NCBI GenBank assembly: GCA_029688995.1
Contig: JARULA010000002.1
Location: 496,001-560,000, forward strand
Direction: 5' to 3'
Length of the DNA stretch: 64,000 bases
DNA from: Marinilabiliaceae bacterium ANBcel2
GTDB taxonomy: Bacteria; Bacteroidota; Bacteroidia; Bacteroidales; Marinilabiliaceae
The notes beneath the pieces are model-generated. The model ran no database searches. It was not told the DNA's origin and saw only the letters and a program-made list of their open reading frames with translations. How positions within the stretch are numbered: the stretch's first letter is position 1; each line of letters starts with the position of its first letter. Both the position numbers and the translations under genes were made by a program. Of this stretch, positions 17,851 to 32,794 are shown in pieces.

Positions 17851-20154
17851 GTGCAGAGTTATCTTAATGAATTAAATCCAGCTCAAAAAGAGGCTGTTGT
17901 AAATTTTGACGGACCTTCACTGGTTATCGCCGGTGCCGGGTCGGGAAAAACCCGAGTGCTTACTTATCGTATAGCTTACCTGTTATCGCAGGGAGTTTCT
18001 CCTTATCGCATTTTGGCTCTTACCTTTACCAATAAGGCTGCACGGGAGATGAAGCAGCGTATTGGTGCAATCATTGGAGATCAGTTTGCACGGCAGTTAT
18101 GGATGGGTACTTTCCATTCTGTTTTTGGTCGTATTTTAAGAATGGAGGCCGAAAAACTTAATTTTAAGTCCTCTTTTACAATATATGATAATGCCGATTC
18201 TAAAAGTCTGGTTAAATCTATATTGAAAGAGATGAGGATTAAGGATAAAAATTATAAACCGGGATTGATACTATCGCGTATCTCATCTGCAAAAAATGAT
18301 CTTATATTGCCTAAGGCTTATAGTCAGGATCAGAACCGGATGGTTGCAGATAAAGCATCTGGTATTCCTCTTACTTATGAGATTTATGCTAGATATGTAA
18401 AGCACTGTACAAAATCCGGCGCTATGGATTTTGATGATTTGCTGCTAAATACAAACATTTTGTTTAGAGATTTTCCCGAATCACTGGCACGTTATCAGGA
18501 TCAGTTTTTATATGTTTTGGTAGATGAGTATCAGGATACCAATATTTCTCAATATCTTATTGTTCGCAAACTTGCCGAAAAACATAAAAACATATGTGTT
18601 GTTGGCGATGATGCTCAAAGTATTTATAGTTTTCGTGGTGCACGAATTCAAAATATTTTAAATTTCAGGAATGATTACCCCGGTTATCAGTTGTATAAAC
18701 TTGAGCAGAATTACAGGTCAACTCAAAATATTGTTAATGTAGCCAATAGTATCATCTCTAAAAATAGTGGGCAGATTGAAAAAGTTGTCTATTCGAAGAA
18801 TGATGAGGGGGATAAAGTTAAGTTTTTATCTGCTTACTCTGATATTGAAGAGGGGTTTTTGGTTGTTAAAGATTTAGTTAGAAGGCAAAGTGAGACAGGA
18901 TGCTCTTTTGCCGACTTTGCTATTTTGTATCGAACGAATGCCCAGTCACGAATTTTTGAAGAGGCTTTTAGAAAAGCTTCACTACCTTATAAAATATATG
19001 GGGGTTTGTCGTTTTATCAGCGTAAAGAGATTAAAGATCTTCTTGCCTACTTAAGGGTTGTGGTGAATCCTTCAGATCAGGAGGCGTTAAAGCGAATTAT
19101 AAACTATCCTGCCCGTGGTATTGGCAAAACCACTACAGATAAGCTTGAGGCTGCTGCCATCGCAAATGATATCTCTATATGGGAAGTTTTGACACACCCC
19201 TCTTTGGCATCTGTTGGCTTTAATGCCGGCACATTAAAAAAGCTTGGAAATTTCAGCTCTATGATAAAAAATATGGGGAGTCAAATTTTGCAATCTGATG
19301 CCTATGAGATTACCAAAGAGATTGCTATTCAAAGTGGACTGATAAAAGAATTGCAACAAGATAAGAGTATCGAAGGTCAAACTCGTGTTGAAAACATTGA
19401 TGAGCTTTTGAATGGTGTTCGTGATTTTGTTGATGAAAAGATCCAATCGGGACAATCAGCATCTTTAATTGAGTTTTTAGAGGAGGTCTCCCTGTTAACC
19501 GATCAGGATAATGAGGGTGAGGAAGGAGTTGATAAAATTACTATGATGACTATTCACTCTGCAAAAGGATTAGAGTTTGAGAATGTTTATATAACTGGTG
19601 TTGAAGAGGGATTGTTTCCTTCTCCCATGTCGATAGATTCGCGTGAAGCACTTGAGGAGGAGCGGCGCCTTTTTTATGTTGCAGTTACCCGTGCTCAAAA
19701 AGCTGTAACACTCTCTTTTGCAAAAAGCAGGTTTAAATATGGGGAACATAACTTTGTTACACCCAGCAGATTTATAAGAGACCTCGATGTTAGCTGTATA
19801 GATGAGGAGAGTTTGAGTTTTATTATGGCAAATAAACAACCCTCTTTTAAGGAGAGACAAAAAAAAGTGTTTAATCCTTTCAATAGCTCCTCTTCGTCGT
19901 CACAATTAAAGAGGAGCAGTAGGTTAAATAAGAGGGGTTTTGAAGATAAAGATCAACAGGATGCCTCGCAATTGATTAAAGCGTATAACAGAGATGTTAA
20001 TATTGGTAATCGTGTAGAGCATGATCGTTTTGGGCATGGAAAAGTTATTGATTTGGAGGGAGTGCCTCCTAATGTAAAAGCAGTAGTTGAGTTTGATAAT
20101 GCTGGAGTTAAACAATTATTACTTAAGTTTGCCAGACTAAAAATATTGAGCTAA
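17851..20154 (+). CDS. UvrD/PcrA-type ATP-dependent DNA helicase
   Basis: Superfamily 1A 3'-5' helicase for DNA repair and replication-conflict resolution, 767 residues. Motifs in order: Q motif LNPAQKEAV, Walker A AGAGSGKTRVL, Ia ALTFTNKAAREM, II VDEYQDTN, III VVGDDAQSIYSFRGA, IV QNYRST, V TIHSAKGLEFENVY and VI VAVTRAQ. The C-terminal 60 residues (VEHDRFGHGKVIDLEG onward) form the Tudor-like PcrA tail that contacts RNA polymerase. The start is a GTG; no better ATG precedes the Q motif. Whether to call it uvrD or pcrA is not settled by sequence. Confidence 0.93.
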   Translation: MQSYLNELNPAQKEAVVNFDGPSLVIAGAGSGKTRVLTYRIAYLLSQGVSPYRILALTFTNKAAREMKQRIGAIIGDQFARQLWMGTFHSVFGRILRMEAEKLNFKSSFTIYDNADSKSLVKSILKEMRIKDKNYKPGLILSRISSAKNDLILPKAYSQDQNRMVADKASGIPLTYEIYARYVKHCTKSGAMDFDDLLLNTNILFRDFPESLARYQDQFLYVLVDEYQDTNISQYLIVRKLAEKHKNICVVGDDAQSIYSFRGARIQNILNFRNDYPGYQLYKLEQNYRSTQNIVNVANSIISKNSGQIEKVVYSKNDEGDKVKFLSAYSDIEEGFLVVKDLVRRQSETGCSFADFAILYRTNAQSRIFEEAFRKASLPYKIYGGLSFYQRKEIKDLLAYLRVVVNPSDQEALKRIINYPARGIGKTTTDKLEAAAIANDISIWEVLTHPSLASVGFNAGTLKKLGNFSSMIKNMGSQILQSDAYEITKEIAIQSGLIKELQQDKSIEGQTRVENIDELLNGVRDFVDEKIQSGQSASLIEFLEEVSLLTDQDNEGEEGVDKITMMTIHSAKGLEFENVYITGVEEGLFPSPMSIDSREALEEERRLFYVAVTRAQKAVTLSFAKSRFKYGEHNFVTPSRFIRDLDVSCIDEESLSFIMANKQPSFKERQKKVFNPFNSSSSSSQLKRSSRLNKRGFEDKDQQDASQLIKAYNRDVNIGNRVEHDRFGHGKVIDLEGVPPNVKAVVEFDNAGVKQLLLKFARLKILS

Positions 20155-20219
20155 TTTTGTGGTTTGGATTAGAGTATTTATAGTTCTAGCTTATCTGCCT
20201 ACAATTTTATTTATTATAC

Positions 20220-20819
20220 ATGGATTATAATTCAACAAGAAAGCCATTAATTCTTCCGGAGTATGGGAGGCATATTCATAAAATGGTTGACTATGCAAAA
20301 ACCATTGAGGATCGCAATGAGCGTACACGCTGTGCACATTCAATAGTGAGTGTTATGGGTAATCTGTTTCCCCATCTTCGTGATGTTAGTGATTTTAAAC
20401 ATAAGTTATGGGATCACATTGCAATAATGTCTGATTTTGAATTGGATATAGATTATCCCTATGAGCCTCCCAGGCCTGATAATTTTTCGGCTAAACCTGA
20501 TCCTGTTCCTTATAATGATTTTAAAATACATTATCGTCATTATGGCCGGTTGATTGAGCAGATGATTTTAAAGGCAATTGATATGGAGGAGGGAGAGTTA
20601 AAGAGTTACTTTGTCTCTTTGATTGCCAACCACATGAGAAAGTCCCTTATTAACTGGAATAAAGATCATGCCAATGATGAGAGGATTAAGATTGATATGG
20701 AGACACTCTCGGGCGGTAAGTTGAGTCCGACAATAAAAGAGATTAGATTGTTGGACAATCGTGATCACCATAATCCAAAAGGTGGACGCAGACGCAACTT
20801 TTCTAGAAAAAAGCAGTGA
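20220..20819 (+). CDS. DUF4290 family protein
   Basis: Cytoplasmic protein of 199 residues belonging to the Bacteroidota family DUF4290: LPEYGRHIHKMVDYA near the N-terminus, then RCAHSIVSVMGNLFPHLRD and HKLWDHIAIMSDFELDIDYPY. The C-terminal 20 residues are very basic and Arg-rich (NPKGGRRRNFSRKKQ), suggesting nucleic-acid contact, which is inference. The gene sits 19 bases upstream of the murA start, a pairing I recall as common in the phylum. Function unknown. Confidence 0.85.
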   Translation: MDYNSTRKPLILPEYGRHIHKMVDYAKTIEDRNERTRCAHSIVSVMGNLFPHLRDVSDFKHKLWDHIAIMSDFELDIDYPYEPPRPDNFSAKPDPVPYNDFKIHYRHYGRLIEQMILKAIDMEEGELKSYFVSLIANHMRKSLINWNKDHANDERIKIDMETLSGGKLSPTIKEIRLLDNRDHHNPKGGRRRNFSRKKQ

Positions 20820-20838
20820 TATATCAAAACATTGTTTA

Positions 20839-22143
20839 ATGAGCAGTTTTGAAATAAGGGGCTCCTGCAATTTATCAGGATCTATTATGCCTCAGGGAGC
20901 TAAAAATGAAGCATTACAGGTGATATGTGCTGTGTTGCTAACACCTGAAAGGGTTGTTATAGATAATATTCCTGATATTATAGATGTTAAAAATCTTATT
21001 TTTTTACTTGAGAAACTGGGTGTTGAAGTTGTAAAACTCTCTACATCTAAATATCAGTTTTGTGCTGCTAATGTTGATTTATCTTATCTTCAGTCGAGGG
21101 AGTTTAAAGGTAAAGCCTCTTCGTTAAGAGGGTCTATTATGATTCTGGGACCGCTTTTAGCACGCTTTGGATATGCTTATTTCCCTAAGCCGGGAGGCGA
21201 TAAAATTGGGAGGCGTAGATTAGATACTCATTTTTTTGGATTTGAAAAATTGGGTGCTCAATTCCATTTTGAGTCTGATAATTTTTTTTATACAGTAACT
21301 GCCGACTCTCTTTCAGGTAACTATATTTTGCTTGATGAAGCTTCGGTTACCGGTACTGCAAATATTTTAATGACTGCTGTGCTAACTCCCGGTAAAACTA
21401 CTATCTATAATGCTGCTTGCGAACCATATATTCAACAACTCTGTAAAATGTTAAACAGGATGGGAGCATCCATAGGTGGTGTTGGATCTAATTTGTTGAC
21501 TATTAAAGGTGTTAGTGAGCTAAATGGTTGTTCACACCGTATATTGCCTGATATGATTGAGGTAGGTAGTTTTATTGGTATGGCTGCCATGACTCGAAGC
21601 AGTATTACTATTAAAGATGCTGCACCTTCAGAGCTTGGGATGATTCCTCTTGCATTTAAAAGAATGGGTGTTAAAATAGAGATACAGGGTGAAGATCTTT
21701 TTATACCTGGTTTAGATGAGTATGAGATAGAAACTTTTATAGATGGTTCTATCATGACTATCTCTGACGCTCCCTGGCCCGGATTAACCCCTGATCTTTT
21801 GAGTGTTTTCCTTGTCCTTGCTACGCAGGCTAAGGGGAGTGTTCTTATTCATCAAAAAATGTTTGAGAGCCGACTTTTCTTTGTGGATAAATTAATTGAT
21901 ATGGGGGCACGTATAATTCTTTGTGATCCTCATCGTGCTACAGTTATTGGTAATAACCATGAAACACCTCTTCGAAGCTCTGTTCTATCTTCTCCTGATA
22001 TTCGCGCAGGCGTATCTCTTTTAATTGCTGCCCTTTCTGCCAGAGGGACCAGTGTAATTCATAATATTGAGCAGATTGACCGTGGATATCAAAATATTGA
22101 TAAACGTCTTAATCAGCTTGGAGCTTCCATTCGTCGTATTTAA
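20839..22143 (+). CDS. murA: UDP-N-acetylglucosamine 1-carboxyvinyltransferase (MurA) with Asp in place of the catalytic Cys
   Basis: First committed step of peptidoglycan synthesis: transfers enolpyruvate from PEP to UDP-GlcNAc. I use the ATG at 20839 (434 residues, family length); the frame extends upstream to 20761 only by overlapping DUF4290. K22 and N23 (GAKNEA) are present. The loop residue that is Cys115 in E. coli is Asp here, D121 in PGGDKIGRRRLDTH. Asp at this site keeps activity in known homologues and abolishes covalent fosfomycin attack, so intrinsic fosfomycin resistance is expected. The C-terminal motif region SSPDIRAGVSLLIAAL is intact. Confidence 0.94.
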   Translation: MSSFEIRGSCNLSGSIMPQGAKNEALQVICAVLLTPERVVIDNIPDIIDVKNLIFLLEKLGVEVVKLSTSKYQFCAANVDLSYLQSREFKGKASSLRGSIMILGPLLARFGYAYFPKPGGDKIGRRRLDTHFFGFEKLGAQFHFESDNFFYTVTADSLSGNYILLDEASVTGTANILMTAVLTPGKTTIYNAACEPYIQQLCKMLNRMGASIGGVGSNLLTIKGVSELNGCSHRILPDMIEVGSFIGMAAMTRSSITIKDAAPSELGMIPLAFKRMGVKIEIQGEDLFIPGLDEYEIETFIDGSIMTISDAPWPGLTPDLLSVFLVLATQAKGSVLIHQKMFESRLFFVDKLIDMGARIILCDPHRATVIGNNHETPLRSSVLSSPDIRAGVSLLIAALSARGTSVIHNIEQIDRGYQNIDKRLNQLGASIRRI

Positions 22144-22281
22144 CTCTTCATTCGTCTTCAAAAAATGCACTTTAGTCATTTTTGTGCCTTTTTAACAAAA
22201 GGCTAAAACGTTGACAACCAGCATATTAACTCGCCTTCCTTAAAATATAAATATAATTTTTAACATTCACAAACAAACAAA

Positions 22282-22314
22282 TTTGGATTTTATCTGTTTA
22301 ATAACATACATTTG
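22282..22314 (+). promoter_or_regulatory. Bacteroidota-type promoter for the TlpA-like gene
   Basis: TTTG at 22282-22285, 21 bases, then TACATTTG at 22307-22314, both perfect matches with correct spacing. The ATG lies 19 bases downstream of the -7 box. Confidence 0.7.
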
Positions 22315-22333
22315 CAGAGTAAAATAGAAATAT

Positions 22334-22900
22334 ATGAAATTTAGGACTTTTACTTATTTATTGATAGTGACCGGATTGGTGTTTTTGTCGTCTATGAATG
22401 GCAGTTATACACCCGGAGTGGGTTTATCAGTTGGGGATAAAGCGCCTGCCATTGATGAAGAGCTTGATGATGGGACGTTTTTTTCTCTTGATTCTTTGAA
22501 AGGGAAAATGGTTCTTGTTGACTTTTGGGCCTCTTATGATGGAAAATCAAGGATTGAAAATCAGACAAAGAGAGAACTGAATAAAAAATATCAAAACAGC
22601 TCTTTTTATAATAGTGATAGTTTTGTTATTGTTAGTATATCTCTTGATAGATTTAAAACTCCTTTTAAAAATGCAGTTAAGAGAGATGGTCTGGATAGTT
22701 TTATTCATCTCTTTTATTCTGAAGGGAAAGATGCCGAGATTGCTCAATTGTATGGAATAGAGGATGAGTTTGTTAATTTTTTGATTGATGGAGAGGGACA
22801 TATTGTTGAGAGGTCATCAGAAATTGACAAAATAGCAGATGCTCTAAAACGGCTCGAATCGGTTACATATGATGATTTCGCATACCGTTTAAGTGAGTAG
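22334..22900 (+). CDS. TlpA-like thioredoxin-fold protein lacking the CxxC motif
   Basis: Exported protein of 188 residues with signal peptide (about 1-20) and an AhpC/TSA-Redoxin fold: VGDKAPAIDEELDDGTFFSL, KGKMVLVDFWASYDGKSR, VIVSISLDR, and a C-terminal strand FVNFLIDGEGHIVER. Where active TlpA or ResA proteins have WCxxC, this one has Y68-D69-G70-K71-S72, so both redox cysteines are absent and no other Cys is present. It cannot act as a disulfide oxidoreductase. A structural or binding role is more likely. Own promoter and own terminator. Confidence 0.85.
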   Translation: MKFRTFTYLLIVTGLVFLSSMNGSYTPGVGLSVGDKAPAIDEELDDGTFFSLDSLKGKMVLVDFWASYDGKSRIENQTKRELNKKYQNSSFYNSDSFVIVSISLDRFKTPFKNAVKRDGLDSFIHLFYSEGKDAEIAQLYGIEDEFVNFLIDGEGHIVERSSEIDKIADALKRLESVTYDDFAYRLSE

Positions 22901-22931
22901 TCAGTATTAATTTTAGGGTGATAATAGAGAA

Positions 22932-22966
22932 GGGGCAGTGTCAAGTAATTTGACGCTGCCCTTTGT
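22932..22966 (+). terminator. Intrinsic terminator after the TlpA-like gene
   Basis: GGGCAGTGTCAA (22933-22944) pairs with TTGACGCTGCCC (22950-22961) with one G/T wobble, followed by CTTTG. The T tract is short. Confidence 0.7.
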
Positions 22967-23044
22967 CATATTTGCAGTTTTATGCTTAACATTGACAGTA
23001 ATGTGTCATTTTGGCTTTAATAGTAAATTGGCAGGAAAATTGAG

Positions 23045-23052
23045 TAACTTTG
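23045..23052 (+). promoter_or_regulatory. Candidate -7 box for grpE-dnaJ
   Basis: TAACTTTG fits TAnnTTTG. The leader to grpE would be about 105 bases. A TTG lies upstream but only 14 bases away, so the -33 is uncertain. Confidence 0.45.
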
Positions 23053-23082
23053 CTGATGATTTAGAATGTTTTAAATGAAAAT

Positions 23083-23103
23083 AATATTGAGATGCTCAAT
23101 ATT
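23083..23103 (+). repeat. 21-bp perfect inverted repeat upstream of grpE
   Basis: AATATTGAG, spacer ATG, CTCAATATT: 9-bp arms with a 3-base centre. It lies about 30 bases downstream of the -7 box and 62 bases upstream of the grpE ATG. It could be a repressor operator or an mRNA hairpin. It does not match CIRCE (TTAGCACTC-N9-GAGTGCTAA). Confidence 0.5.
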
Positions 23104-23164
23104 TGTAACATATAAGTAATTATATGGCTATTTATCTAATTAAACTATTTTTAATTAAAATAAA

Positions 23165-23791
23165 ATGGGCTTAAATATGTCTGGACAATCAAAAAAGGAG
23201 ACTGAAGAAAATAAAGAGATTAAGAAGGGTGAGCAGGAGGTAGATGCTCAGGAGAATGTTGCTGATGATAAGGTGACTAATGAGGAAGGTGATAAAAAGA
23301 AAGATGATAAAAAGAAGAAGAGCAAAGAGAGCTCTGCTGAAAAAAAATGCCGTGAATTAGAGAAAGAGCTTGAAGAGATGCATAATAAACATATGCGCCT
23401 TATAGCAGAGTATGATAACTATCGTAAACGAACTTTAAAAGAGAAGATGGAACTCTCTAAGCTTGCCGGGGAAAAGATTTTTGGTGATATTTTACCGGTA
23501 ATAGATGATTTTGAAAGAGCTCTTTTGCACCTTGATGATGATTCTGATATTACATCGGTGAAAGAGGGAGTTGAACTTATCTATAATAAATTTTTAAAGT
23601 ATTTATCATCTCAAGGAGTGAAAGAGATAAAAACTGATAAGGAGGAGTTTAATGCTGATATTCATGAAGCAGTAACTAAGATTCCTGCTCCCAGTGATGA
23701 CTTGAAGGGTAAAATAGTAGATTGTGTTCAAAAGGGGTATATTCTTGATGAGAAGGTAATAAGGTATCCCAAAGTTGTAGTAGGAGAATAA
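23165..23791 (+). CDS. grpE: Nucleotide exchange factor GrpE
   Basis: Co-chaperone that releases ADP from DnaK. Acidic/basic disordered N-terminus (about 1-65), long coiled coil ([21 protein letters not shown] then [12 protein letters not shown]), and the C-terminal beta wing with [20 protein letters not shown], then [12 protein letters not shown]. 208 residues. The first ATG at 23165 and a second at 23177 are both possible. It lies 16 bases before dnaJ; dnaK is not in this window, so the chaperone genes are split. Confidence 0.93.
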
Positions 23792-23807
23792 AATAAATTT
23801 ATCAGTC

Positions 23808-24974
23808 ATGTCGAAAAGAGATTATTACGAAATATTGGAAGTAGGGAAAAATGCTTCTGCAGAGGAGATAAAGAAAGCATATCGAAAAAAAGCAATACGT
23901 TTTCACCCCGATAAGAATCCCGGAGATGCTAAGGCTGAGGAGAAGTTTAAAGAGGCTGCTGAGGCTTATGAAGTTTTAAGTGATCCCGAAAAGCGCCAAA
24001 GATATGATCAGTTTGGTCATGCTGGTGTTGGTGGAGCTTCTCAAGGGGGAGGCTTTGGTGGAGGTGGCATGAGTATGGATGATATCTTTTCCCATTTTGG
24101 AGATATTTTTGGTGGCGGCTTTGGCGGCTTTAGTGGTTTTGGCGGCTTTAGCGGAGGCGGAGGAAGGCGATCTCAAAGAGTAAATAAAGGTTCTAATCTT
24201 CGTGTTAAGGTTAAATTGACTCTTCAGGAGATTGCTAATGGAGTTGAAAAGAAGCTTAAAGTAAAAAAATATGTTGGGTGTAACTCTTGTAGTGGTACAG
24301 GAGCGGCCGATGGCAACTCTTACAGCTCTTGTTCAACATGTGGCGGTAGCGGACAGGTAACAAGAGTCTCTAACACTATATTGGGGCAGATGCAAACTAC
24401 CTCTACCTGTCCATCCTGTCAGGGAGAAGGTAAAAATATTACTAAAAAATGTCCTAAATGTAATGGTGAGGGACTTATTCGTCAGGAAGAGGTGATATCG
24501 GTAAAGATACCTGCAGGTGTTGAAGAGGGGATGCAGTTGTCGGTATCAGGAAAAGGTAATGCTGCTCGCCGTGGAGGTATTAATGGAGATTTAATTGTTT
24601 TAATTCAGGAAGAGAGACATCCAGACTTAATTAGAGATGGTCATGATCTTATCTATAATTTGACGTTGGGAATTCCTGATGTCGTGCTGGGAACTCCTGT
24701 TCAAATACCTACTATAGAGGGTAAGGTTAAGGTTAAAATTGAACCAGGTACTCAGCCTGGAAAAATTTTAAGACTTAAAGGTAAAGGATTGCCCGAAGTG
24801 AACGGATACCAAAGAGGAGATCTTTTGGTACGTGTAAATGTATATATACCAGATAATATTAGTCGGGAGGAGACCCGTGCCTTTGAGAAGTTTAGAGAGT
24901 CTGAATCATTTACCCCTAAATCGGGTGAGGGTTCAAATATTTTTAACCGTATGAAAAGTATGTTCGATCAATAA
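23808..24974 (+). CDS. dnaJ: Chaperone DnaJ
   Basis: Hsp40 co-chaperone that delivers substrates to DnaK and stimulates its ATPase. J domain at 1-70 with the HPD tripeptide ([10 protein letters not shown]), a Gly/Phe-rich linker ([14 protein letters not shown]), four zinc-finger CxxCxGxG repeats ([32 protein letters not shown]) and the C-terminal substrate-binding domain. It is a full-length type I DnaJ of 388 residues. It shares the transcript with grpE, and oxyR follows 27 bases later. Confidence 0.96.
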
Positions 24975-25001
24975 TTAGTTATTAACAATCTCTTTATTTT
25001 A

Positions 25002-25931
25002 ATGAATCTTCAGCAGCTTGAGTATATTGTAGCATTAGATGAGTATAGACATTTTGTGACCGCAGCAGAAAAATGTTTTGTCACTCAGCCAACTTTAACA
25101 ATGCAATTAAAAAGACTTGAAGATGAGATTGGAATTCAACTTTTTGATCGTACTCGTAAACCTCTTATACCTACGGGTGAAGGGGAGGCTTTTATTGCCA
25201 GAGCAAGAAGAATTTTAAGAGATTTAAATGATCTTGAAAACTTTCTTGTTGAAGAGAAAAAAAGTATTGAAGGAGTTTTTAGAATTGGTGTTATACCAAC
25301 TCTTGCTCCTTATGTTTTGCCACTGTTTTTAGATCGTTTTAGCAGAGAAAATCCTAAAACATATCTAAAAATTGAAGAGCTTAAGTCTGAGTCAATAATT
25401 AAGGCACTGCATAATGATCACTTGGATTTAGGTATTATGGCAACACCTGCTGGAGAGAAGGATTTAAAAGAGACTCTTTTGTTTAACGAACCTTTTCTTT
25501 TTTATGGTTCTTATAATCATCCTTTTCTTAAAGAAGAAAGGGTTGACCCCGATAAGTTAGATAGATCTTCGCTATTATTACTTGCTGAGGGACATTGTTT
25601 TAGAGATCAGGCCCTTAATATTTGTAATGAAAAAGGGGATGAATTTGTTTCTATGAATTTTCATTATGAAAGTGGTTCAGTAGAGACTTTAAAGAGATTG
25701 GTTCAATCCGGTCTCTGTTATACTTTGGTTCCGCAATTATCGGTAAGTGATTTTGAGAGTAAAAATGTTAAGCGCTTTATTTCACCAGAACCTGTTAGAG
25801 AAGTAAGTTTGGTATCACATATTAGCTTTAATAAAACTGCTTTAATTGATTCAATCAAGGCTATTATTCAGGAAGAGCTTCCCGGTGATATCTCAACTCC
25901 GCATGAGGTGAAAAAAATAAAATGGAGATAG
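25002..25931 (+). CDS. oxyR: Hydrogen peroxide-sensing transcription regulator OxyR (LysR family)
   Basis: LysR-type regulator of 309 residues. The N-terminal winged helix-turn-helix starts MNLQQLEYIVALDE with TQPTLTMQLKRLEDEIG. The sensor domain has the OxyR redox pair at the same positions as in E. coli, C199 and C208 (EGHCFRDQALNIC), so peroxide forms a disulfide that alters DNA binding. It follows dnaJ closely, grouping protein-folding and oxidative-stress functions. Its stop codon is just upstream of the trp promoter. Confidence 0.93.
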   Translation: MNLQQLEYIVALDEYRHFVTAAEKCFVTQPTLTMQLKRLEDEIGIQLFDRTRKPLIPTGEGEAFIARARRILRDLNDLENFLVEEKKSIEGVFRIGVIPTLAPYVLPLFLDRFSRENPKTYLKIEELKSESIIKALHNDHLDLGIMATPAGEKDLKETLLFNEPFLFYGSYNHPFLKEERVDPDKLDRSSLLLLAEGHCFRDQALNICNEKGDEFVSMNFHYESGSVETLKRLVQSGLCYTLVPQLSVSDFESKNVKRFISPEPVREVSLVSHISFNKTALIDSIKAIIQEELPGDISTPHEVKKIKWR

Positions 25932-25932
25932 A

Positions 25933-25964
25933 TTTGCATATTAATTTTTTGTTGTGTAAAATTG
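25933..25964 (+). promoter_or_regulatory. Probable promoter of the trp leader and operon
   Basis: TTTG at 25933-25936, 20 bases, then TAAAATTG at 25957-25964, one mismatch from TAnnTTTG. It starts 2 bases after the oxyR stop and would begin a transcript about 38 bases before the leader peptide. TAGATTTG at 25929-25936 is an alternative -7 box. Confidence 0.5.
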
Positions 25965-26007
25965 CAAATAAGTAGTGAGTATAAACTTAAGTATAGATTT
26001 TTTAGTG

Positions 26008-26073
26008 ATGGGAATATGTTTTTGTAATAATAATTGGTGGTGGCAAACTTCATACCTGACTTCCGGGAGGTGA
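26008..26073 (+). CDS. trpL: trp operon leader peptide with three consecutive Trp codons
   Basis: Short frame of 21 codons plus stop: it starts with ATG GGA ATA, carries TGG TGG TGG at codons 10-12 (26035-26043) and ends with TGA at 26071-26073. Trp codons are rare, so three in a row just before a hairpin terminator and trpE is the hallmark of ribosome-mediated attenuation: when charged tRNA-Trp is scarce the ribosome stalls here and the downstream terminator does not form. Too short for automatic gene calling. Translation is inferred, not shown. Confidence 0.8.
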   Translation: MGICFCNNNWWWQTSYLTSGR

Positions 26074-26113
26074 AGCAATGCCCTTTTGTGTTATTACAAA
26101 AAACTAGAATATT

Positions 26114-26152
26114 AAAAAAGGCTTGTCGGACTCCCGACAAGCCTTTTTTTTT
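26114..26152 (+). terminator. trp attenuator terminator
   Basis: GGCTTGTCGG (26120-26129) pairs perfectly with CCGACAAGCC (26134-26143) around the loop ACTC, extended by an A run (26114-26119) against T9 at 26144-26152. It lies between the leader peptide and trpE, 25 bases before the trpE ATG. CTCCCG at 26131-26136 in its loop and 3' arm is complementary to CGGGAG at 26064-26069, giving a possible competing pair. Confidence 0.85.
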
Positions 26153-26177
26153 GAACCAAAATTCAAACTATTCATAC

Positions 26178-27590
26178 ATGAAAAAGTACATCTTAGATTT
26201 AAAATGTAGCTCTATTCCTCCAAATATTGGAGATGTAGTAACACCAGTTAGTGTATATCTTTCATTGAGAGATCTTTTCCCTAACACTATTTTGCTCGAA
26301 AGTTCCGATTATCATGGAGGAAATAACTCTATGTCGTTTGTTTGTTTCGATCCTGTTGCAGATTTTATAGTTGATAAAGAGGAGGTTGTTTGCCGATTTC
26401 CGGATGGTTTGGAGCAGTGCTATCCTTTACCTGCCTCTGAGAGTGTTCCCGATTTATTGACTCGATTTATCTCCTCTTTTATTTTAAAAGGGGAGAGTGA
26501 TGTCCCGGCATGCGGATTGTATGGATATACTAATTACGATGCAGTAAGATATTTTGAAGATGTTGATATTAAGGTTGATTCAGAAGCTCCCAACTCTATT
26601 CCGGATATGCGTTATCATCTCTATAAATCTGTAATTGCATTTAATCATTTTACTAACAAACTCTACTTTGTGGAGCATTTATGCAATTCGCAAGAGAGTC
26701 AAATTGATTCTTTACTTGAGATATTGAAGAACCGTACGGTTTCCTCTTTTGGCTTTCAGCCTTCAGGTGATGAGGTCTCTCCATTAAGTGACCAGCAGTA
26801 TAAAACCATGGTAAATAAAGGTAAAGAGCATTGTTATCGGGGAGATGTTTTTCAGATCGTACTCTCTCGTCTCTTTTCTCAATCTTTTACAGGAGATGAA
26901 TTTAATGTTTATCGTGCTTTGAGAAATATTAATCCCTCTCCATATCTTTTCTATTTCGATTATGGTGGTTATCGTCTGTTTGGTTCATCACCCGAGAGTC
27001 AGCTTGTTGTGGAAAACGGTGTTGCAACAATTAATCCTATTGCCGGCACTTTTAAACGTACAGGTGATGATATGCAGGATTTTAAACTTGCAGAGAAGCT
27101 TGCTGCTGATGTTAAAGAGAATGCCGAGCATGTTATGTTGGTAGATCTTGCTCGTAACGATCTTGCACGAAATTGTAAAAAGGTAGAGGTAACTACTTTT
27201 AAAGAGATTCAGTATTATAGTCATGTTTTACACCTTGTATCAGAGGTAAAGGGCGAGCTTAAGGGTAACAGATCTATACCCAGATTAATGGGGGACACTT
27301 TTCCTGCCGGCACTCTTTCAGGCGCACCTAAACATAAGGCTTTGGAGTTAATAAACAGATATGAGCCTCATCAAAGAAGTTTTTATGGGGGTTGTATAGG
27401 AAAAATAGGCTTTGATAGCTCTTTTAATCAGGCAATTACTATTCGCTCTTTTTTAAGTAAAAACAACAGACTCTTTTATCAGGCTGGAGCCGGTGTTGTC
27501 TCTGAATCGGATGATATAAGTGAACTCAATGAGGTTAGCAATAAGCTTGGAGCTTTAAAAAAAGCAATAAAATTTGCCCGTCAATTTTAA
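26178..27590 (+). CDS. trpE: Anthranilate synthase component I
   Basis: Converts chorismate to anthranilate using ammonia from TrpG. I start at the ATG at 26178 (470 residues, MKKYILDLK); a frame that opens at 26034 runs through the leader peptide and terminator and is not credible. The N-terminal Trp-binding motif LLESS (about residues 39-43) implies feedback inhibition by tryptophan. Catalytic core: FQIVLSRLFSQ, SPYLFYFDYGG, PIAGTFKRTGDD, HVMLVDLARNDLARNC and FPAGTLSGAPKHKALELI. First structural gene of a seven-gene operon, controlled by the upstream attenuator. Confidence 0.95.
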   Translation: MKKYILDLKCSSIPPNIGDVVTPVSVYLSLRDLFPNTILLESSDYHGGNNSMSFVCFDPVADFIVDKEEVVCRFPDGLEQCYPLPASESVPDLLTRFISSFILKGESDVPACGLYGYTNYDAVRYFEDVDIKVDSEAPNSIPDMRYHLYKSVIAFNHFTNKLYFVEHLCNSQESQIDSLLEILKNRTVSSFGFQPSGDEVSPLSDQQYKTMVNKGKEHCYRGDVFQIVLSRLFSQSFTGDEFNVYRALRNINPSPYLFYFDYGGYRLFGSSPESQLVVENGVATINPIAGTFKRTGDDMQDFKLAEKLAADVKENAEHVMLVDLARNDLARNCKKVEVTTFKEIQYYSHVLHLVSEVKGELKGNRSIPRLMGDTFPAGTLSGAPKHKALELINRYEPHQRSFYGGCIGKIGFDSSFNQAITIRSFLSKNNRLFYQAGAGVVSESDDISELNEVSNKLGALKKAIKFARQF

Positions 27591-27618
27591 ACCTGGTAAA
27601 TAATTAAAAAGAATAGAG

Positions 27619-28191
27619 ATGAAAATATTAGTCTTAGATAATTATGATTCTTTTACCTACAATTTGGTACATTATATAGAAGAGTTATCCAACCACAGTG
27701 TAGATGTTTATCGTAATGATAAAATTACTGTGAATGATGCTTCAAAGTATGATAAAATAGTCCTTTCGCCCGGTCCGGGGATTCCTGATGAAGCCGGAAT
27801 ATTAAAGGAGTTAATTTTTAAACTGGGCAGCACACACTCTATATTGGGTGTATGTTTGGGTTGTCAGGCTATAGCAGAGGTTTATGGGGGCTCTATTTTT
27901 AATTTGCCTTATGTTTTTCATGGTATTGCCACACCTGTTAGAGTTACTGATAAAAATGAGGTACTTTTTAATAAACTTAGTTCATCATTTATGGCTGGGC
28001 GATATCATTCGTGGATTGTTAACAGAAGAGGTTTGCCGGATGATCTGCTAATTACTGCTGTTGATGAAGAAGAGCAGATTATGGCCATTAGGCATCGTAA
28101 CTTTGATGTGTGTGGAGTTCAATTTCACCCCGAGTCTGTTTTAACTCCGGATGGTAAAATGATGATAGAGAACTGGCTAAAAAGTGCATAA
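27619..28191 (+). CDS. trpG: Anthranilate synthase component II (glutamine amidotransferase)
   Basis: Supplies ammonia to TrpE. Class I amidotransferase of 190 residues, MKILVLDNYDSFTYNLVHYI at the N-terminus, oxyanion region LSPGPGIPDEAG, nucleophile Cys in LGVCLGCQAIAEVYGG, and the His-Glu pair in VQFHPESVLTPDG. Separate from trpD (not fused as in E. coli). No pabA-specific feature is decisive, but the position between trpE and trpD makes the tryptophan role clear; it may also serve folate synthesis. Confidence 0.94.
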   Translation: MKILVLDNYDSFTYNLVHYIEELSNHSVDVYRNDKITVNDASKYDKIVLSPGPGIPDEAGILKELIFKLGSTHSILGVCLGCQAIAEVYGGSIFNLPYVFHGIATPVRVTDKNEVLFNKLSSSFMAGRYHSWIVNRRGLPDDLLITAVDEEEQIMAIRHRNFDVCGVQFHPESVLTPDGKMMIENWLKSA

Positions 28192-28243
28192 AAGATTTGT
28201 GATCTTTAATTAATATCTAGACTAATGGCTAAATATAAAAGTT

Positions 28244-29251
28244 ATGTTACAACCTGTATTAAAAAAAATGTTTAATTATCAAACACTCTCTTCAAAAGAG
28301 GCATATAATGTTTTAGTTGAAATTACTCGCAATAGTTATACAAAATCTGAAGTTGTTGCTTTTTTATCGGTTTATATGATGAGAACTGTTACTGTTGAAG
28401 AGCTTACCGGCTTTAGAGATGCGCTGTTAGAGTTATGTTTGCCTGTTGATCTTTCCGATTTTAACACCATTGATATGTGTGGAACGGGTGGAGATGGTAA
28501 AAACACATTTAATATTTCCACTTTAGCATCTTTTATTGTTGCCGGGTCAGGAGTAAAAGTCTCAAAGCATGGGAATTATGGTGTTAGCTCGGGGTCAGGG
28601 TCATCTAATATGATGAGTTCTATGGGCTATAGGTTTTCTAATGATGAGTCAATTCTTAAAAAGGAGCTGGAGAGTGCAGGAATTTGTTTTTTACATGCTC
28701 CTCTTTTTCACCCTGCCATGAAGTCAGTCGGACCGGTTAGAAAAGAGTTGGGATTAAAAACATTTTTTAATATGCTGGGTCCAATGGTTAACCCCTCTTA
28801 TCCTAACAACCAGCTTGTTGGAGTTTTTGATCTTGAGCTTGCACGCTTATATCAATATATTTATCAAAAGCAGAATACCAATTTTACTATTGTACATAGT
28901 GTTGATGGGTATGATGAGATATCTTTAACTTCGCCTGTTAAGATAATTAAAAGGAGTGGAGAAGATCTTTTAAAGCCCGAAGATCTAGGTTTTGAGAGGT
29001 TGAAACCAGATTATATAAAAGGGGGGGAGAGCGTTGACTCGGCTAAATCTATTTTTGATAAAATTTTAAAAGGTGAAGGAACCAATGCATGGAATGATGT
29101 AGTGACAGCTAATGCTGCTATGGCTATTAAAACTATGTTTCCTGGAAAGGAGTATGACAGGTGCGTTGAGCTTGCTGCTGATTCGCTCCATTCGGGAGCC
29201 GCATTAAAAGCTTTAAACAAATTGTTAGAGGTAAATAACAAATTGAATTGA
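28244..29251 (+). CDS. trpD: Anthranilate phosphoribosyltransferase
   Basis: Joins anthranilate to PRPP (made by Prs, also encoded here). N-terminal helical domain, then the PRPP-binding motif DMCGTGGDGKNTFNIST, KHGNYGVSSGSGSSN, and the anthranilate-side segments HPAMKSVGPVRKELGLKTFF and NMLGPMVNP. At 335 residues it is full length and not fused to TrpG. It lies 52 bases after trpG and 41 before trpC. Confidence 0.95.
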   Translation: MLQPVLKKMFNYQTLSSKEAYNVLVEITRNSYTKSEVVAFLSVYMMRTVTVEELTGFRDALLELCLPVDLSDFNTIDMCGTGGDGKNTFNISTLASFIVAGSGVKVSKHGNYGVSSGSGSSNMMSSMGYRFSNDESILKKELESAGICFLHAPLFHPAMKSVGPVRKELGLKTFFNMLGPMVNPSYPNNQLVGVFDLELARLYQYIYQKQNTNFTIVHSVDGYDEISLTSPVKIIKRSGEDLLKPEDLGFERLKPDYIKGGESVDSAKSIFDKILKGEGTNAWNDVVTANAAMAIKTMFPGKEYDRCVELAADSLHSGAALKALNKLLEVNNKLN

Positions 29252-29292
29252 GAGGATTCTTTTAACTAATTATTTAAGAAAGCAATTTTTTG

Positions 29293-30084
29293 ATGAATAT
29301 TTTGGACAAGATTATTACTAACAAAAGAGAAGAGGTACAGAGGAGACAGAGGATAAAAAGTGTAGAGAGTTTTAAAGATAGTTTTCTTTTTCACGAAAAG
29401 AGACCTTCACTTTATGATTATCTTTTAAATGGTAATGGAATTATTGCAGAATTTAAAAGAAAGTCTCCCTCAAAAGGCGAGATTAATTGCAAGGTAACTC
29501 CGGCTCAGGTTGTTTTGGGGTATCAAAAAGCTAATGTTTCTGCAATTTCTGTTTTAACTGATCATAAATATTTTGGAGGAAGTAATAGTGATTTAATAGA
29601 AGCCGTTGAAGTAACCTCTTTGCCTGTTATAAGAAAAGAGTTTATTATTGATGAGTACCAGATATATGAGGCAAAAGCTATTGGGGCCTCTGCAATATTA
29701 CTTATTGGAGCTCTATTAACAAAAGAGCAGGTCGCCTGTTTTTCTTCATTAAGCAGGCAATTGGGGATGGATGTTCTCTTTGAAATTCATGATAGCAAAG
29801 AGCTTGATAAGCTAAATAATGACATAGATATTGTAGGTATTAATAATCGTAATTTAAAAACTTTTAATGTAGATATAGAGCAATCGATTTCTCTTGCCTC
29901 TATGTTGCCTGCTGATAAATTGCCGGTTGCCGAAAGTGGTATACAAACCGTTGAAGATTATCTCTATCTTAAAAAATGCGGATTTAAAGGGTTTTTAATT
30001 GGAGAGACTTTCATGAGAAGCGCCCAGCCTGATAAAATGTGTCAATATTTTTGTAACCAAATAAAGATTGCAGAGAGATGTTAA
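29293..30084 (+). CDS. trpC: Indole-3-glycerol phosphate synthase
   Basis: Closes the indole ring from CdRP. TIM barrel of 263 residues with IIAEFKRKSPSKGEI (catalytic Glu and Lys), VSVLTDHKYFGGS (here ISVLTDHKYFGGS), LPVIRKEFIIDEYQI, VGINNRNLKTF and VAESGIQT. I use the ATG at 29293; the TTG one codon earlier is not needed. Its last 7 bases overlap the start of trpF, which indicates translational coupling. Confidence 0.95.
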   Translation: MNILDKIITNKREEVQRRQRIKSVESFKDSFLFHEKRPSLYDYLLNGNGIIAEFKRKSPSKGEINCKVTPAQVVLGYQKANVSAISVLTDHKYFGGSNSDLIEAVEVTSLPVIRKEFIIDEYQIYEAKAIGASAILLIGALLTKEQVACFSSLSRQLGMDVLFEIHDSKELDKLNNDIDIVGINNRNLKTFNVDIEQSISLASMLPADKLPVAESGIQTVEDYLYLKKCGFKGFLIGETFMRSAQPDKMCQYFCNQIKIAERC

Positions 30085-30710
30085 TAAAAGTGTGTGGAAT
30101 GAGGTGTCCTTCTAATATAGCACTTTTAGCTCAGCTTGATATTGACTATATGGGATTTATTTTTTATAAGAATTCTGCCAGATATATTGGTGATGATTAT
30201 ATTAATGGATTTAATGTTAGAGAATTAAACTTATCTCAAGTAACAAAAACCGGAGTTTTTGTTAATGTTAAAATAGAAGAGGTTAAAGAGTTTGCAAATA
30301 AATTTTCTTTAAACGCTTTACAATTTCACGGAGAGGAGAGTGCCGATTACTGTAAGGTTTTTAAGCAGATGGGTTTTGAAGTAATTAAGGCATTAAGACC
30401 ACAAAAAGAGTCTCTTAATAGTGTGGCGAGCCGTTATGAAAAGGTTTGTAACTATATTTTGTTTGATACCCCCACGGCTTTTTATGGTGGCTCTGGTAGA
30501 AAGTTTGACTGGTCGGTTTTGAATAGATATGATGCAGATACTCCATTTTTTTTGAGTGGTGGAATTGAGTTGGATGATGTTATGCAAATTAAGAAGATTC
30601 AAAATAAAAGTTTTGCAGGTGTTGATATTAATAGCAGGTTTGAAACAGAACCGGGACTGAAAGATTTTAACAGGGTGAAACAATTTGTTGAACAGATTAA
30701 AAAAAAGTAA
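30078..30710 (+). CDS. trpF: Phosphoribosylanthranilate isomerase
   Basis: Amadori rearrangement of PRA to CdRP. TIM barrel of 210 residues with KVCGMRCPSNI (catalytic Cys), DYMGFIFYKNSARYI, KTGVFVNV, LQFHGEE, FDTPTAFYGGSGRKFDW with the catalytic Asp, and FLSGGIELDDV plus GVDINSRFE. Separate gene, overlapping trpC by 7 bases (ATGTTAA) and 6 bases before trpB. Confidence 0.94.
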   Translation: MLIKVCGMRCPSNIALLAQLDIDYMGFIFYKNSARYIGDDYINGFNVRELNLSQVTKTGVFVNVKIEEVKEFANKFSLNALQFHGEESADYCKVFKQMGFEVIKALRPQKESLNSVASRYEKVCNYILFDTPTAFYGGSGRKFDWSVLNRYDADTPFFLSGGIELDDVMQIKKIQNKSFAGVDINSRFETEPGLKDFNRVKQFVEQIKKK

Positions 30711-30716
30711 TAATAT

Positions 30717-31895
30717 ATGATCTATCCTGATAGTAAAGGTTTTTATGGAGAGTTTGGCGGAGCTTTTATTCCAGAAATGCTGCTGCCAAATATTGAGAGA
30801 CTTAAGAGTTGTTATAATGAAATATTGTCTTCAGATGGTTATAAACAAAAATTGAGTTCGCTTTTGAACGACTATGCAGGCAGGCCTACTCCATTATATG
30901 AGGCCTCAAACTTATCTTCATTTTATAACACTAATGTATGGCTTAAAAGAGAGGACCTTAATCATACAGGATCTCATAAAATTAATAATACTATTGGTCA
31001 AATTTTGTTAGCTAAAGAGTTGGGCCGAACCAGAATAATTGCTGAAACTGGTGCAGGACAGCATGGCGTAGCTACTGCTACAGTAGCAGCTTTAATGAAT
31101 ATGGAGTGTGTTGTTTATATGGGAGAGGTTGATATAGAACGACAGGCTCCAAATGTTGCACGTATGAAAATGCTTGGAGCTGAAGTGCGACCAGCTGTTT
31201 CTGGAAGCAGAACTTTAAAAGATGCTACCAATGAAGCTTTGCGAGACTGGATAAATAATCCGACCGACACTTTTTACATTATTGGTTCGGTAGTTGGCCC
31301 TCATCCATATCCCGATATTGTAACTCGTTTACAAAGTGTTATTGGTATAGAGATAGAGGAGCATTTTCGTCTTAAAACCGGGAAGGATTATCCCGATTAT
31401 GTTCTCTCTTGTGTAGGAGGTGGCTCTAATGCAGCAGGGAGCTTTTTTCCATTTATTAATAATGATAATGTTACGCTTTTGGGAGCTGAGGCTGCAGGGT
31501 TGGGTGAGAAGAGCGGAAAAACTGCTGCTTCTATGGCCTGTGGTGATAAAGGTGTAATTCATGGTAGTTTTACTTATTTGATGCAGAATGATGATGGTCA
31601 AATTACTGAACCTTATTCATTATCTGCCGGATTAGATTATCCTGGTGTTGGACCGCTTCACTCTTTTTTAAAAGTAAGTAATCGAGCTCAATATATTCCT
31701 GTTAGTGATAAAGAGGCGCTTGATGCAGCTTTGCAGCTGACCAGACTTGAAGGTATTGTGCCTGCATTGGAGTCGGCTCATGCTTTGGCTCTTTTAAATA
31801 AAAGAGAGTTTCTTCATGGTGAAAATGTTGTTATAACAGTTTCGGGACGGGGGGATAAGGATATGCAGACCTACATGAGGGAGTTTAATTTGTAA
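30717..31895 (+). CDS. trpB: Tryptophan synthase beta chain
   Basis: PLP subunit that joins indole and serine. 392 residues of the common TrpB1 type: YGEFGGAFIPEML, RPTPLYEA, KREDLNHTGSHKINN with the PLP lysine, ETGAGQHGVA, CVGGGSNAAGSF for phosphate binding, and GLDYPGVGPLHSFL. All interaction surfaces for an alpha chain are expected, and trpA follows 36 bases later. The C-terminal SGRGDKDM motif with the PLP-nitrogen Ser is intact. Confidence 0.96.
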   Translation: MIYPDSKGFYGEFGGAFIPEMLLPNIERLKSCYNEILSSDGYKQKLSSLLNDYAGRPTPLYEASNLSSFYNTNVWLKREDLNHTGSHKINNTIGQILLAKELGRTRIIAETGAGQHGVATATVAALMNMECVVYMGEVDIERQAPNVARMKMLGAEVRPAVSGSRTLKDATNEALRDWINNPTDTFYIIGSVVGPHPYPDIVTRLQSVIGIEIEEHFRLKTGKDYPDYVLSCVGGGSNAAGSFFPFINNDNVTLLGAEAAGLGEKSGKTAASMACGDKGVIHGSFTYLMQNDDGQITEPYSLSAGLDYPGVGPLHSFLKVSNRAQYIPVSDKEALDAALQLTRLEGIVPALESAHALALLNKREFLHGENVVITVSGRGDKDMQTYMREFNL

Positions 31896-31931
31896 GTTAT
31901 CTTTTTTTAGTTGCTGTTTTAAATTTTTATT

Positions 31932-32699
31932 ATGAGGTTAACCAATATTTTTAATAATAAAAGCGATCTTTTATCTGTCTATTTTACAGCAGGATTTCCT
32001 GAATTGAACAGTACAATCTCGGTTTTGGAGGCTCTTGAAAATGCCGGTGTTGATTTTGTTGAGGTGGGTATGCCTTTTTCTGATCCTGTTGCTGATGGTC
32101 CAACAATTCAGGGTAGCAGCACTCATGCTTTGAACAATGGTATCTCTTTAAAACTGCTATTTGAGCAGCTTGAAGAGGCTAAAAAGAGGGTCTCTTTTCC
32201 GCTTATTTTAATGGGATATTTTAATCCGATTTTAAAATTTGGTGTGGAGAGGTTTGTAGAGCGATGTGTTGAGTGTGATATTCAGGGAGTGATTTTGCCC
32301 GATATGCCTTATGAAATATATGATGAGAAGTATCGTCATATTTTTGAAAAGAGGGGGGTATTTCCAATATTTTTAATTACTCCTCAAACTACAGATGAGC
32401 GTATTAAACTTCTGGATGAAAACAGTTCTCTTTTTTTATATATGGTTTCATCTTCCTCTGTTACAGGCAAGTCTTCAGGGAATAATATGCAGCAACTTGC
32501 TTACTTTAAAAGAGTAGCTGAGATGAAGCTTAAATCTCCTGTAATGACAGGTTTTGGTATTAGTGATAATAAGAGCTTTAAGCGAGTTTGTGGTTATACT
32601 AATGGAGCTATTATTGGCAGTGCTTATGTTTCTGCAATAAAAAATAGTGTTGATATAGAGAGTGATACTCTATCTTTTGTAAAGAGAATTCGGGGTTAA
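31932..32699 (+). CDS. trpA: Tryptophan synthase alpha chain
   Basis: Cleaves indole-3-glycerol phosphate and channels indole to TrpB. TIM barrel of 255 residues with catalytic Glu in DFVEVGMPFSDPVADGP (second catalytic Asp in VILPDMPYE), LILMGYFNPIL, FLITPQTTDERI, and the phosphate loop TGFGISDNKS and GAIIGSAYV. Last gene of the operon, which contains all seven Trp functions in the order E-G-D-C-F-B-A. A terminator follows. Confidence 0.95.
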   Translation: MRLTNIFNNKSDLLSVYFTAGFPELNSTISVLEALENAGVDFVEVGMPFSDPVADGPTIQGSSTHALNNGISLKLLFEQLEEAKKRVSFPLILMGYFNPILKFGVERFVERCVECDIQGVILPDMPYEIYDEKYRHIFEKRGVFPIFLITPQTTDERIKLLDENSSLFLYMVSSSSVTGKSSGNNMQQLAYFKRVAEMKLKSPVMTGFGISDNKSFKRVCGYTNGAIIGSAYVSAIKNSVDIESDTLSFVKRIRG

Positions 32700-32735
32700 A
32701 GTGTCAAGCAGAGAAGAATTCTATTGATGAAAATA

Positions 32736-32777
32736 AAGGGTGCGACAACTTGACATTTTGCCGCACCTTCTTTTTTT
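32736..32777. terminator. Terminator between trpA and the EF-G paralogue
   Basis: GGTGCG (32739-32744) pairs with CGCACC (32762-32767), then CTTCTTTTTTT on the plus strand. A weaker T-rich end on the minus strand may let it also serve the convergent gene. TGTCAAG and CTTGACA nearby (32702-32708 and 32749-32755) are also complementary. Confidence 0.65.
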
Positions 32778-32794
32778 ATTAATATTTAACTGTT

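Follow-up and report, generated by a model that had tools for sequence, protein, structure and literature searches.

A probable transcription attenuator of the trp operon in a Marinilabiliaceae bacterium, with a covarying contact between the stop-proximal strand and the terminator loop

The trpEGDCFBA operon of Marinilabiliaceae bacterium ANBcel2 is very probably controlled by a ribosome-mediated transcription attenuator. We analyzed a 64,000-nucleotide stretch of the genome, called the window below, in which the trp leader lies between an OxyR-like LysR gene (25002-25931) and the seven-gene trp operon. The architecture of the leader is essentially classic, and its departure from the classic form is confined to the antiterminator contact. 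Judged from the sequences of related leaders, the helix kept by compensatory changes appears to grip the terminator loop, mostly together with the first bases of the 3' arm, rather than the 5' arm. The parts of the locus are as follows.

25002-25931, same strand as the trp leader and directly upstream of it: LysR-family regulator gene, OxyR-like (best NCBIfam match OxyR, below the curated cutoff).
26008-26073, + strand: trp leader peptide ORF, MGICFCNNNWWWQTSYLTSGR, 21 residues, from the ORF scan (ATG at 26008, stop codon TGA at 26071-26073).
26019-26030, + strand: helix 1 5' arm (region 1), TTTTTGTAATAA, perfect 12-bp complement of 26091-26102.
26035-26043, + strand: Trp sensor, three consecutive codons TGG TGG TGG; the Trp codons are kept in relatives.
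26048-26075, + strand: local hairpin (probability 1.00 in the free RNA), which makes CGGGAG inaccessible in the absence of a ribosome.
26064-26069, + strand: antiterminator outer arm CGGGAG, just 5' of the leader stop codon, supported by covariation between the stop-proximal strand and the terminator loop.
26075-26087, + strand: antiterminator inner arm, approximate limits; predicted partner the terminator 5' arm (minimum free energy (MFE) structure of the stalled, shortened RNA).
26091-26102, + strand: helix 1 3' arm (part of region 2), TTATTACAAAAA, supported by complementarity and covariation, as for its partner arm.
26114-26149, + strand: intrinsic terminator hairpin 26114-26129:26134-26149, a perfect 16-bp stem with a 4-nt loop and a T-run to 26152.
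26116-26126, + strand: terminator 5' arm segment predicted by folding to pair with the inner arm, approximate limits.
26131-26136, + strand: antiterminator partner CTCCCG, made up of 3 nt at the end of the terminator loop followed by the 3 nt that begin the 3' arm.
26178-27590, + strand: trpE, first gene of the operon (NCBIfam match).

The trpE-G-D-C-F-B-A operon spans 26178-32699, and its best NCBIfam matches cover all seven enzymes, those of TrpE and TrpF lying below their curated cutoffs. The distance from the terminator to trpE is about 25 nt. Features that define this functional class were found in the leader, namely a short ORF with consecutive Trp codons, an intrinsic terminator before the first gene, and a mutually exclusive antiterminator backed by covariation. 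The whole leader segment folds at -55.8 kcal/mol (z -6.4), and none of 200 shuffles folded as well. Across the whole window, no other strong terminator was found behind a mini-ORF in which one residue occurs three times in a row. A search of the genome for a His-run pattern gave 57 matches; 30 loci were scanned and yielded one short HHHH ORF, with no terminator.

A first-pass annotation of this DNA had proposed mutually exclusive pairings within the leader, and the coordinates of all its arms were correct. The 12-bp long-range helix that it placed around the Trp codons (26019-26030:26091-26102, helix 1) is perfectly complementary and encloses them. This is the longest inverted repeat in 26000-26113, and a length of 12 nt was reached by none of 1000 dinucleotide shuffles (mean 6.4). 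CTTC (26048-26051) and GAAG (26072-26075) close the local hairpin as annotated. The interior of this hairpin is paired, although the MFE structure contains 26055-26058:26064-26067 (CCUG:CGGG) and not the annotated ACCT/AGGT, a small shift of register. The complementarity of CGGGAG (26064-26069) with CTCCCG (26131-26136), called the outer helix here, is exact. Taken alone it is at chance level, with 20 inverted pairs of at least 6 nt among 221 bases; only the relatives give it significance.

The pairings, the covariation of the outer helix and helix 1, and the fold switch were computed; we infer the stalling, the order and kinetics of events and the effect on expression, which would run as follows. 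Without translation, helix 1 and the local hairpin would sequester the antiterminator strand, and the terminator would form. When charged tRNA-Trp is plentiful, the ribosome would reach the stop codon and cover the adjoining antiterminator arm, and the terminator would again form. When Trp is short, the ribosome would stall on codons 26035-26043, where it would mask the 5' arm of helix 1 together with the upstream strand of the local hairpin. This would leave CGGGAG, and GCAAUGCCCUUUU downstream of it, free to capture the terminator 5' arm, the loop and the first bases of the 3' arm during its transcription, and the polymerase would continue into trpE. The annotation had described the order of events as different in detail from the classic 1:2/2:3/3:4 scheme. 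We correct this: the regulatory logic follows that scheme, with helix 1 plus the local hairpin in the role of 1:2, the antiterminator in that of 2:3, and the terminator in that of 3:4. The annotation had also omitted that the stop codon adjoins the antiterminator arm, so that a ribosome finishing the peptide would cover that arm.

We folded the leader with and without an imposed ribosome footprint. The masks, whose sizes were assumed, covered 26020-26052 for a ribosome at the second Trp codon and 26053-26085 for a ribosome at the stop codon. When no ribosome was imposed, helix 1 had a probability of 0.88-0.96 and the local hairpin of 1.00, and the outer antiterminator was at 0.00 at every length tested. 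With the stalled ribosome and RNA ending at 26136, the outer pairing rose to 0.94, and the MFE structure extended inward to the terminator 5' arm. This probability dropped to 0.35 by 26140 and to 0.00 at full length, where the terminator stood at 0.96. With the ribosome at the stop codon it was 0.00, since that mask itself covers CGGGAG. Thus, in the folding, the outer antiterminator does not form in the free or at-stop states, and the terminator does. Full-length RNA favors the terminator in every state, so antitermination must be kinetic and decided during synthesis of the 3' arm.

A similar shift was predicted across the related leaders described below. At least three expected outer pairs were present in 122 of 159 stalled leaders versus 41 of 159 free leaders and 0 of 159 at the stop codon, the last figure arising largely by construction of the imposed mask. 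In a swapped-strand control, in which the strand was taken from another species, at least three expected outer pairs were present in 153 of 477 stalled folds. These results and the covariation uphold the annotated view that the pairings are mutually exclusive, and point to the predicted opening of the first arm and the small hairpin by a ribosome stalled on the Trp codons and to predicted competition of CGGGAG with the terminator. The competition model was largely right; what it lacked is that CGGGAG:CTCCCG appears to be just the outer part of a longer predicted antiterminator reaching the terminator 5' arm. Since the loop has 4 nt and the pairing takes up 3 nt of the 3' arm, the upper part of the terminator stem should be unable to coexist with the antiterminator.

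For comparison, we gathered 206 trpE loci by trpE searches and took their upstream stretches. In two the upstream sequence was too short, in 28 the 500 nt searched contained no Trp-rich ORF, and in six an ORF was present without a terminator by our criteria. A leader with a terminator was accordingly found at 170 of the 206 loci, and removal of 11 exact duplicates left 159 distinct leaders, that of the window included; 34 of the 206 had no leader by the search criteria used. One such miss (L005) is explained by a leader 589 nt upstream, past the 500-nt limit. In three genomes (G038, G047 and G055) the match to the Rfam family RF01692 and trpE are some 1.3 to 1.5 kb apart, with the match upstream, so that another gene probably comes first. 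The nearest named relatives belong to Bacteroidota, the best being Natronoflexus pectinivorans (Marinilabiliaceae). In the close relatives L041/L006 and L005, additional sequence separates the terminator from trpE, and the leader is about 400-590 nt away from this gene.

A sliding test on 148 distinct leaders looked for 12-nt leader windows, located by their distance from the stop codon, that fit the terminator of their own leader better than those of other species. The leader window starting 12 nt before the stop codon gave z 13.8 against the terminator loop, and the next one gave z 11.3. The one 48 nt upstream of the stop codon, before the Trp codons, gave z 9.3 against the pre-terminator segment, which corresponds to helix 1. 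Values of 5.4 to 8.9 for windows close to the terminator against the pre-terminator segment are expected because these overlap that segment. Other combinations ranged from -3.2 to 5.8 and were mostly far weaker. Two terminator 5'-arm windows, tested against the same stop-proximal position, gave z 1.6 and 1.8.

Among all 159 leaders, none of 5000 permutations matched the pairing of the stop-proximal strand with the terminator loop. When relatedness was reduced to 44 representatives below 68% identity, z was 7.2 for the outer helix and 6.5 for helix 1, with 0 of 5000 permutations as good in either case. Covariation of the local hairpin was weak to moderate (z 4.9 for all 159; z 2.1 for the 44 representatives, 103 of 5000 permutations). 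Pairing of the Trp codons with the post-stop segment gave no signal in the same comparison (z -0.3 and -0.4). We also contrasted disjoint nearest neighbors with differing loops (79 pairs), the neighbors being defined by leader similarity, not by a tree. The leader's own outer pairing was better in 42 pairs, worse in 11 and tied in 26 (p 2.2e-5), and that of helix 1 was better in 39, worse in 16 and tied in 24 (p 0.0027).

The outer strands differ greatly between leaders, as in GGGAUU:AAUCCC, GAGAGUU:AACUCUC, GUAAGAUU:AAUCUUAC, GGGAAAU:AUUUCCC and UCGUGAA:UUCACGA. An outer stem scoring at least 14 was present in 117 of 159 leaders, with 68 distinct strands. Loop nucleotides were taken in by 113 of these stems, 91 reached the 3' arm, and 29 reached the 5' arm. 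In the narrower region used for the permutation test, 96 of 159 leaders reached a score of 14 versus 17.0% of mismatched pairs. Depending on the region used, 42 to 63 of the 159 leaders had no strong contiguous outer stem. The outer helix was scored across distant clades by register-free stem scores and permutations instead of column by column, because the MAFFT alignment (A1) shifts the stop-proximal strand by about 2 nt between clades relative to the pairing.

These data bear on the complementarity being a product of shared ancestry or composition and without function. Related leaders do share sequence, and a lone 6-mer match is common. The z of 7.2 among divergent representatives, the outcome of the neighbor contrasts and the diversity of strands largely contradict such an origin, which we consider extremely improbable.

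A more serious alternative is a plain classic attenuator, in which antitermination would proceed via the terminator 5' arm only and the loop complementarity would be incidental. The MFE structure of the stalled RNA does predict inner pairing with the 5' arm, and the stop-proximal strand of some distant relatives (L144, L190 and L191) looks complementary to the 5' arm by eye. The inner helix does not stand out in the window, where 39 of 500 shuffles did as well, and it gave no covariation signal in the relatives (z 0.3 and -1.1). The latter result is uninformative because the 5' arm hardly varies, so the covariation test leaves room for a role of this arm. Nevertheless, covariation sits in the loop (z 13.8) and not in the 5' arm (z 1.6 and 1.8), and the contrasts favored the outer pairing by 42 to 11. 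We therefore regard antitermination by the 5' arm only as improbable. As an observation on distant members of the class, the pre-stop strand of L144, L190 and L191 can be matched by eye to the terminator 5' arm, as with CGGGGCUU and GAGCCCCG in L144, and both antiterminator geometries may occur in Bacteroidota.

The stop-proximal strand could also pair with the loop as an H-type pseudoknot that keeps most of the terminator stem and strengthens or modulates the terminator. Three leaders (L027, L028 and L049) have loops of 7-8 nt with the complement wholly or mostly inside, and coexistence is geometrically conceivable there. In the window, by contrast, the loop has 4 nt and the pairing uses 3 nt of the 3' arm; 91 of the 117 stems likewise reach this arm. 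Trp starvation would moreover raise termination, the wrong sign for a biosynthetic operon. We regard a pseudoknot of this type as very unlikely.

Among nine near relatives, the leader of the window included, 4 of the 12 helix 1 pairs were changed on both sides and 77.8% of cells were paired; the ends were poorly kept, each end pair being unpaired in 7 of the 9. The terminator had 97.1% of cells paired and three pairs changed on both sides. For the three-helix structure as a whole, 0 of 500 shuffles had as high a covariation score. In this near-clade alignment (A2), the outer helix had 92.6% of cells paired, with one poorly kept pair (columns 61:132, failing in 4 of 9 sequences). CGGGAG was invariant and no both-sided change occurred, which neither supports nor opposes the outer helix. 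Owing to this near invariance, the evidence for the outer helix comes from the wider comparisons.

Of 75 leaders, 73 had their best outer duplex no more than 6 nt from the leader stop codon, and in 46 it overlapped this codon, consistent with masking once a ribosome has completed the peptide. Four leaders of the nearest relatives (L004, L005, L006 and L041, the last two identical) have their stop codon about 20 nt downstream of CGGGAG. In these, a ribosome at the stop codon would cover the inner arm and leave the outer arm exposed, which makes them a real exception.

In the trp attenuator of E. coli (RF00513, Trp leader), the antiterminator is formed by region 2 with the terminator 5' arm. The leader of the window shares with this type a leader peptide with Trp codons, three alternative pairings and an intrinsic terminator before trpE. 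It differs in that the covarying contact involves the terminator loop plus the first part of the 3' arm, and the extension to the 5' arm is a prediction. RF00513 had no match in 20000-34000. Two further Rfam candidates were rejected as chance matches, RF00225 (IRES_Tobamo) at 29180-29287, with 28.2 bits against a gathering score of 50, and RF02273 (FsrA) at 26065-26146, with 19.2 bits against 80.

The catalogued family closest to this leader is RF01692 (Bacteroid-trp). Like the leader of the window, it is a Bacteroidota trp leader located before trp biosynthesis genes, and the two have in common the long helix that encloses the Trp codons and AAAAAGGCUUGUC in the terminator 5' arm. RF01692 aligned end to end with 25988-26127 (model positions 1-131 of 131, not cut off) at 43.7 bits, below the gathering score of 49 (E 0.018 for 14 kb with all families; E 8.9e-4 for the genome). 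The leader is thus a sub-threshold, divergent relative of RF01692 and not a member. Unlike the window, the consensus structure line of RF01692 lacks both an antiterminator and any pairs in the region of the terminator. A genome from the same family as the source of the window (G036) passes the cutoff with 49.7 bits. In 149 related genomes, searched with stricter filters that lose weak matches, RF01692 was found in nine at E ≤ 0.001, five of them over the cutoff, versus a leader and terminator at 170 of 206 trpE loci in our search; the two samples differ.

In the excerpted text of Weinberg et al. 2010 (PMC2864571), the 'Bacteroid-trp' motif appears as a table entry only. The corresponding parts of two transcriptome papers (PMC9723704, PMC7366714) mention leader-peptide attenuation in the phylum, with no details on trp. 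The first notes it upstream of amino-acid operons in Flavobacterium psychrophilum; these leaders share the phylum and the general idea with ours, and no antiterminator is given in that part (PMC9723704). Within the portions of the open literature searched, including PMC2864571, PMC4833913, PMC3766115, PMC9723704, PMC7366714 and PMC2965389, no description of a loop-gripping antiterminator was found. Attenuators of this functional class are textbook knowledge and the family has an Rfam entry; within the open literature searched, the novelty is the contact of the antiterminator with the loop and 3' arm.

The Rfam model for the trp leader of this phylum shows just the Trp-codon helix; the decisive antiterminator is absent and few related leaders are recovered. 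A rule that the stop-codon strand pairs with the terminator loop would let Bacteroidota attenuators be recognized where sequence models fail. It also allows the mechanism to be tested by mutating both sides of the pairing; no worked-out trp attenuator from this phylum was found in the open literature searched. We give roughly even odds to a wider reading, in which trp attenuators in a large part of Bacteroidota (class Bacteroidia), including tandem copies in some lineages, would use an antiterminator between the stop region and the loop plus proximal 3' arm. Such a design would keep the 5' arm fixed, let the loop and stop-proximal strand co-evolve freely, and read the arrival of the ribosome at the stop codon directly.

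Several leaders of this kind were also seen away from trpE. In six of them (L032, L033, L034, L036, L038 and L040) the stop-proximal strand is complementary to the loop by eye, as with GTCGTGAG and CTCACGAC in L033, L036 and L038. Contig 43 of genome G063 carries two leaders, L037 (62882-63005) and L040 (59085-59210), 3.8 kb apart on the same strand. Their peptides are nearly alike (NNNWWWRLRKHNS and NSNWWWRLRKHNS), which suggests a duplicated attenuator for two trp transcription units.

At 11 loci (L052, L055, L056, L057, L059, L066, L068, L069, L075, L087 and L093), an additional Trp-rich leader peptide, equipped with its own terminator, lies about 280 to 375 nt 5' of trpE and ahead of the usual Trp-run leader. 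The trp operons of these loci appear to carry tandem attenuators. At several of them, the strand after the upstream stop codon is complementary by eye to the loop of that leader's terminator, as in L066 with GUUAGGAG:CUUCUAAC. The upstream peptide, NTIWLPWWGLLT or KSIWLWWGNTFLC, is conserved as amino acids, which could hint at nascent-peptide sensing.
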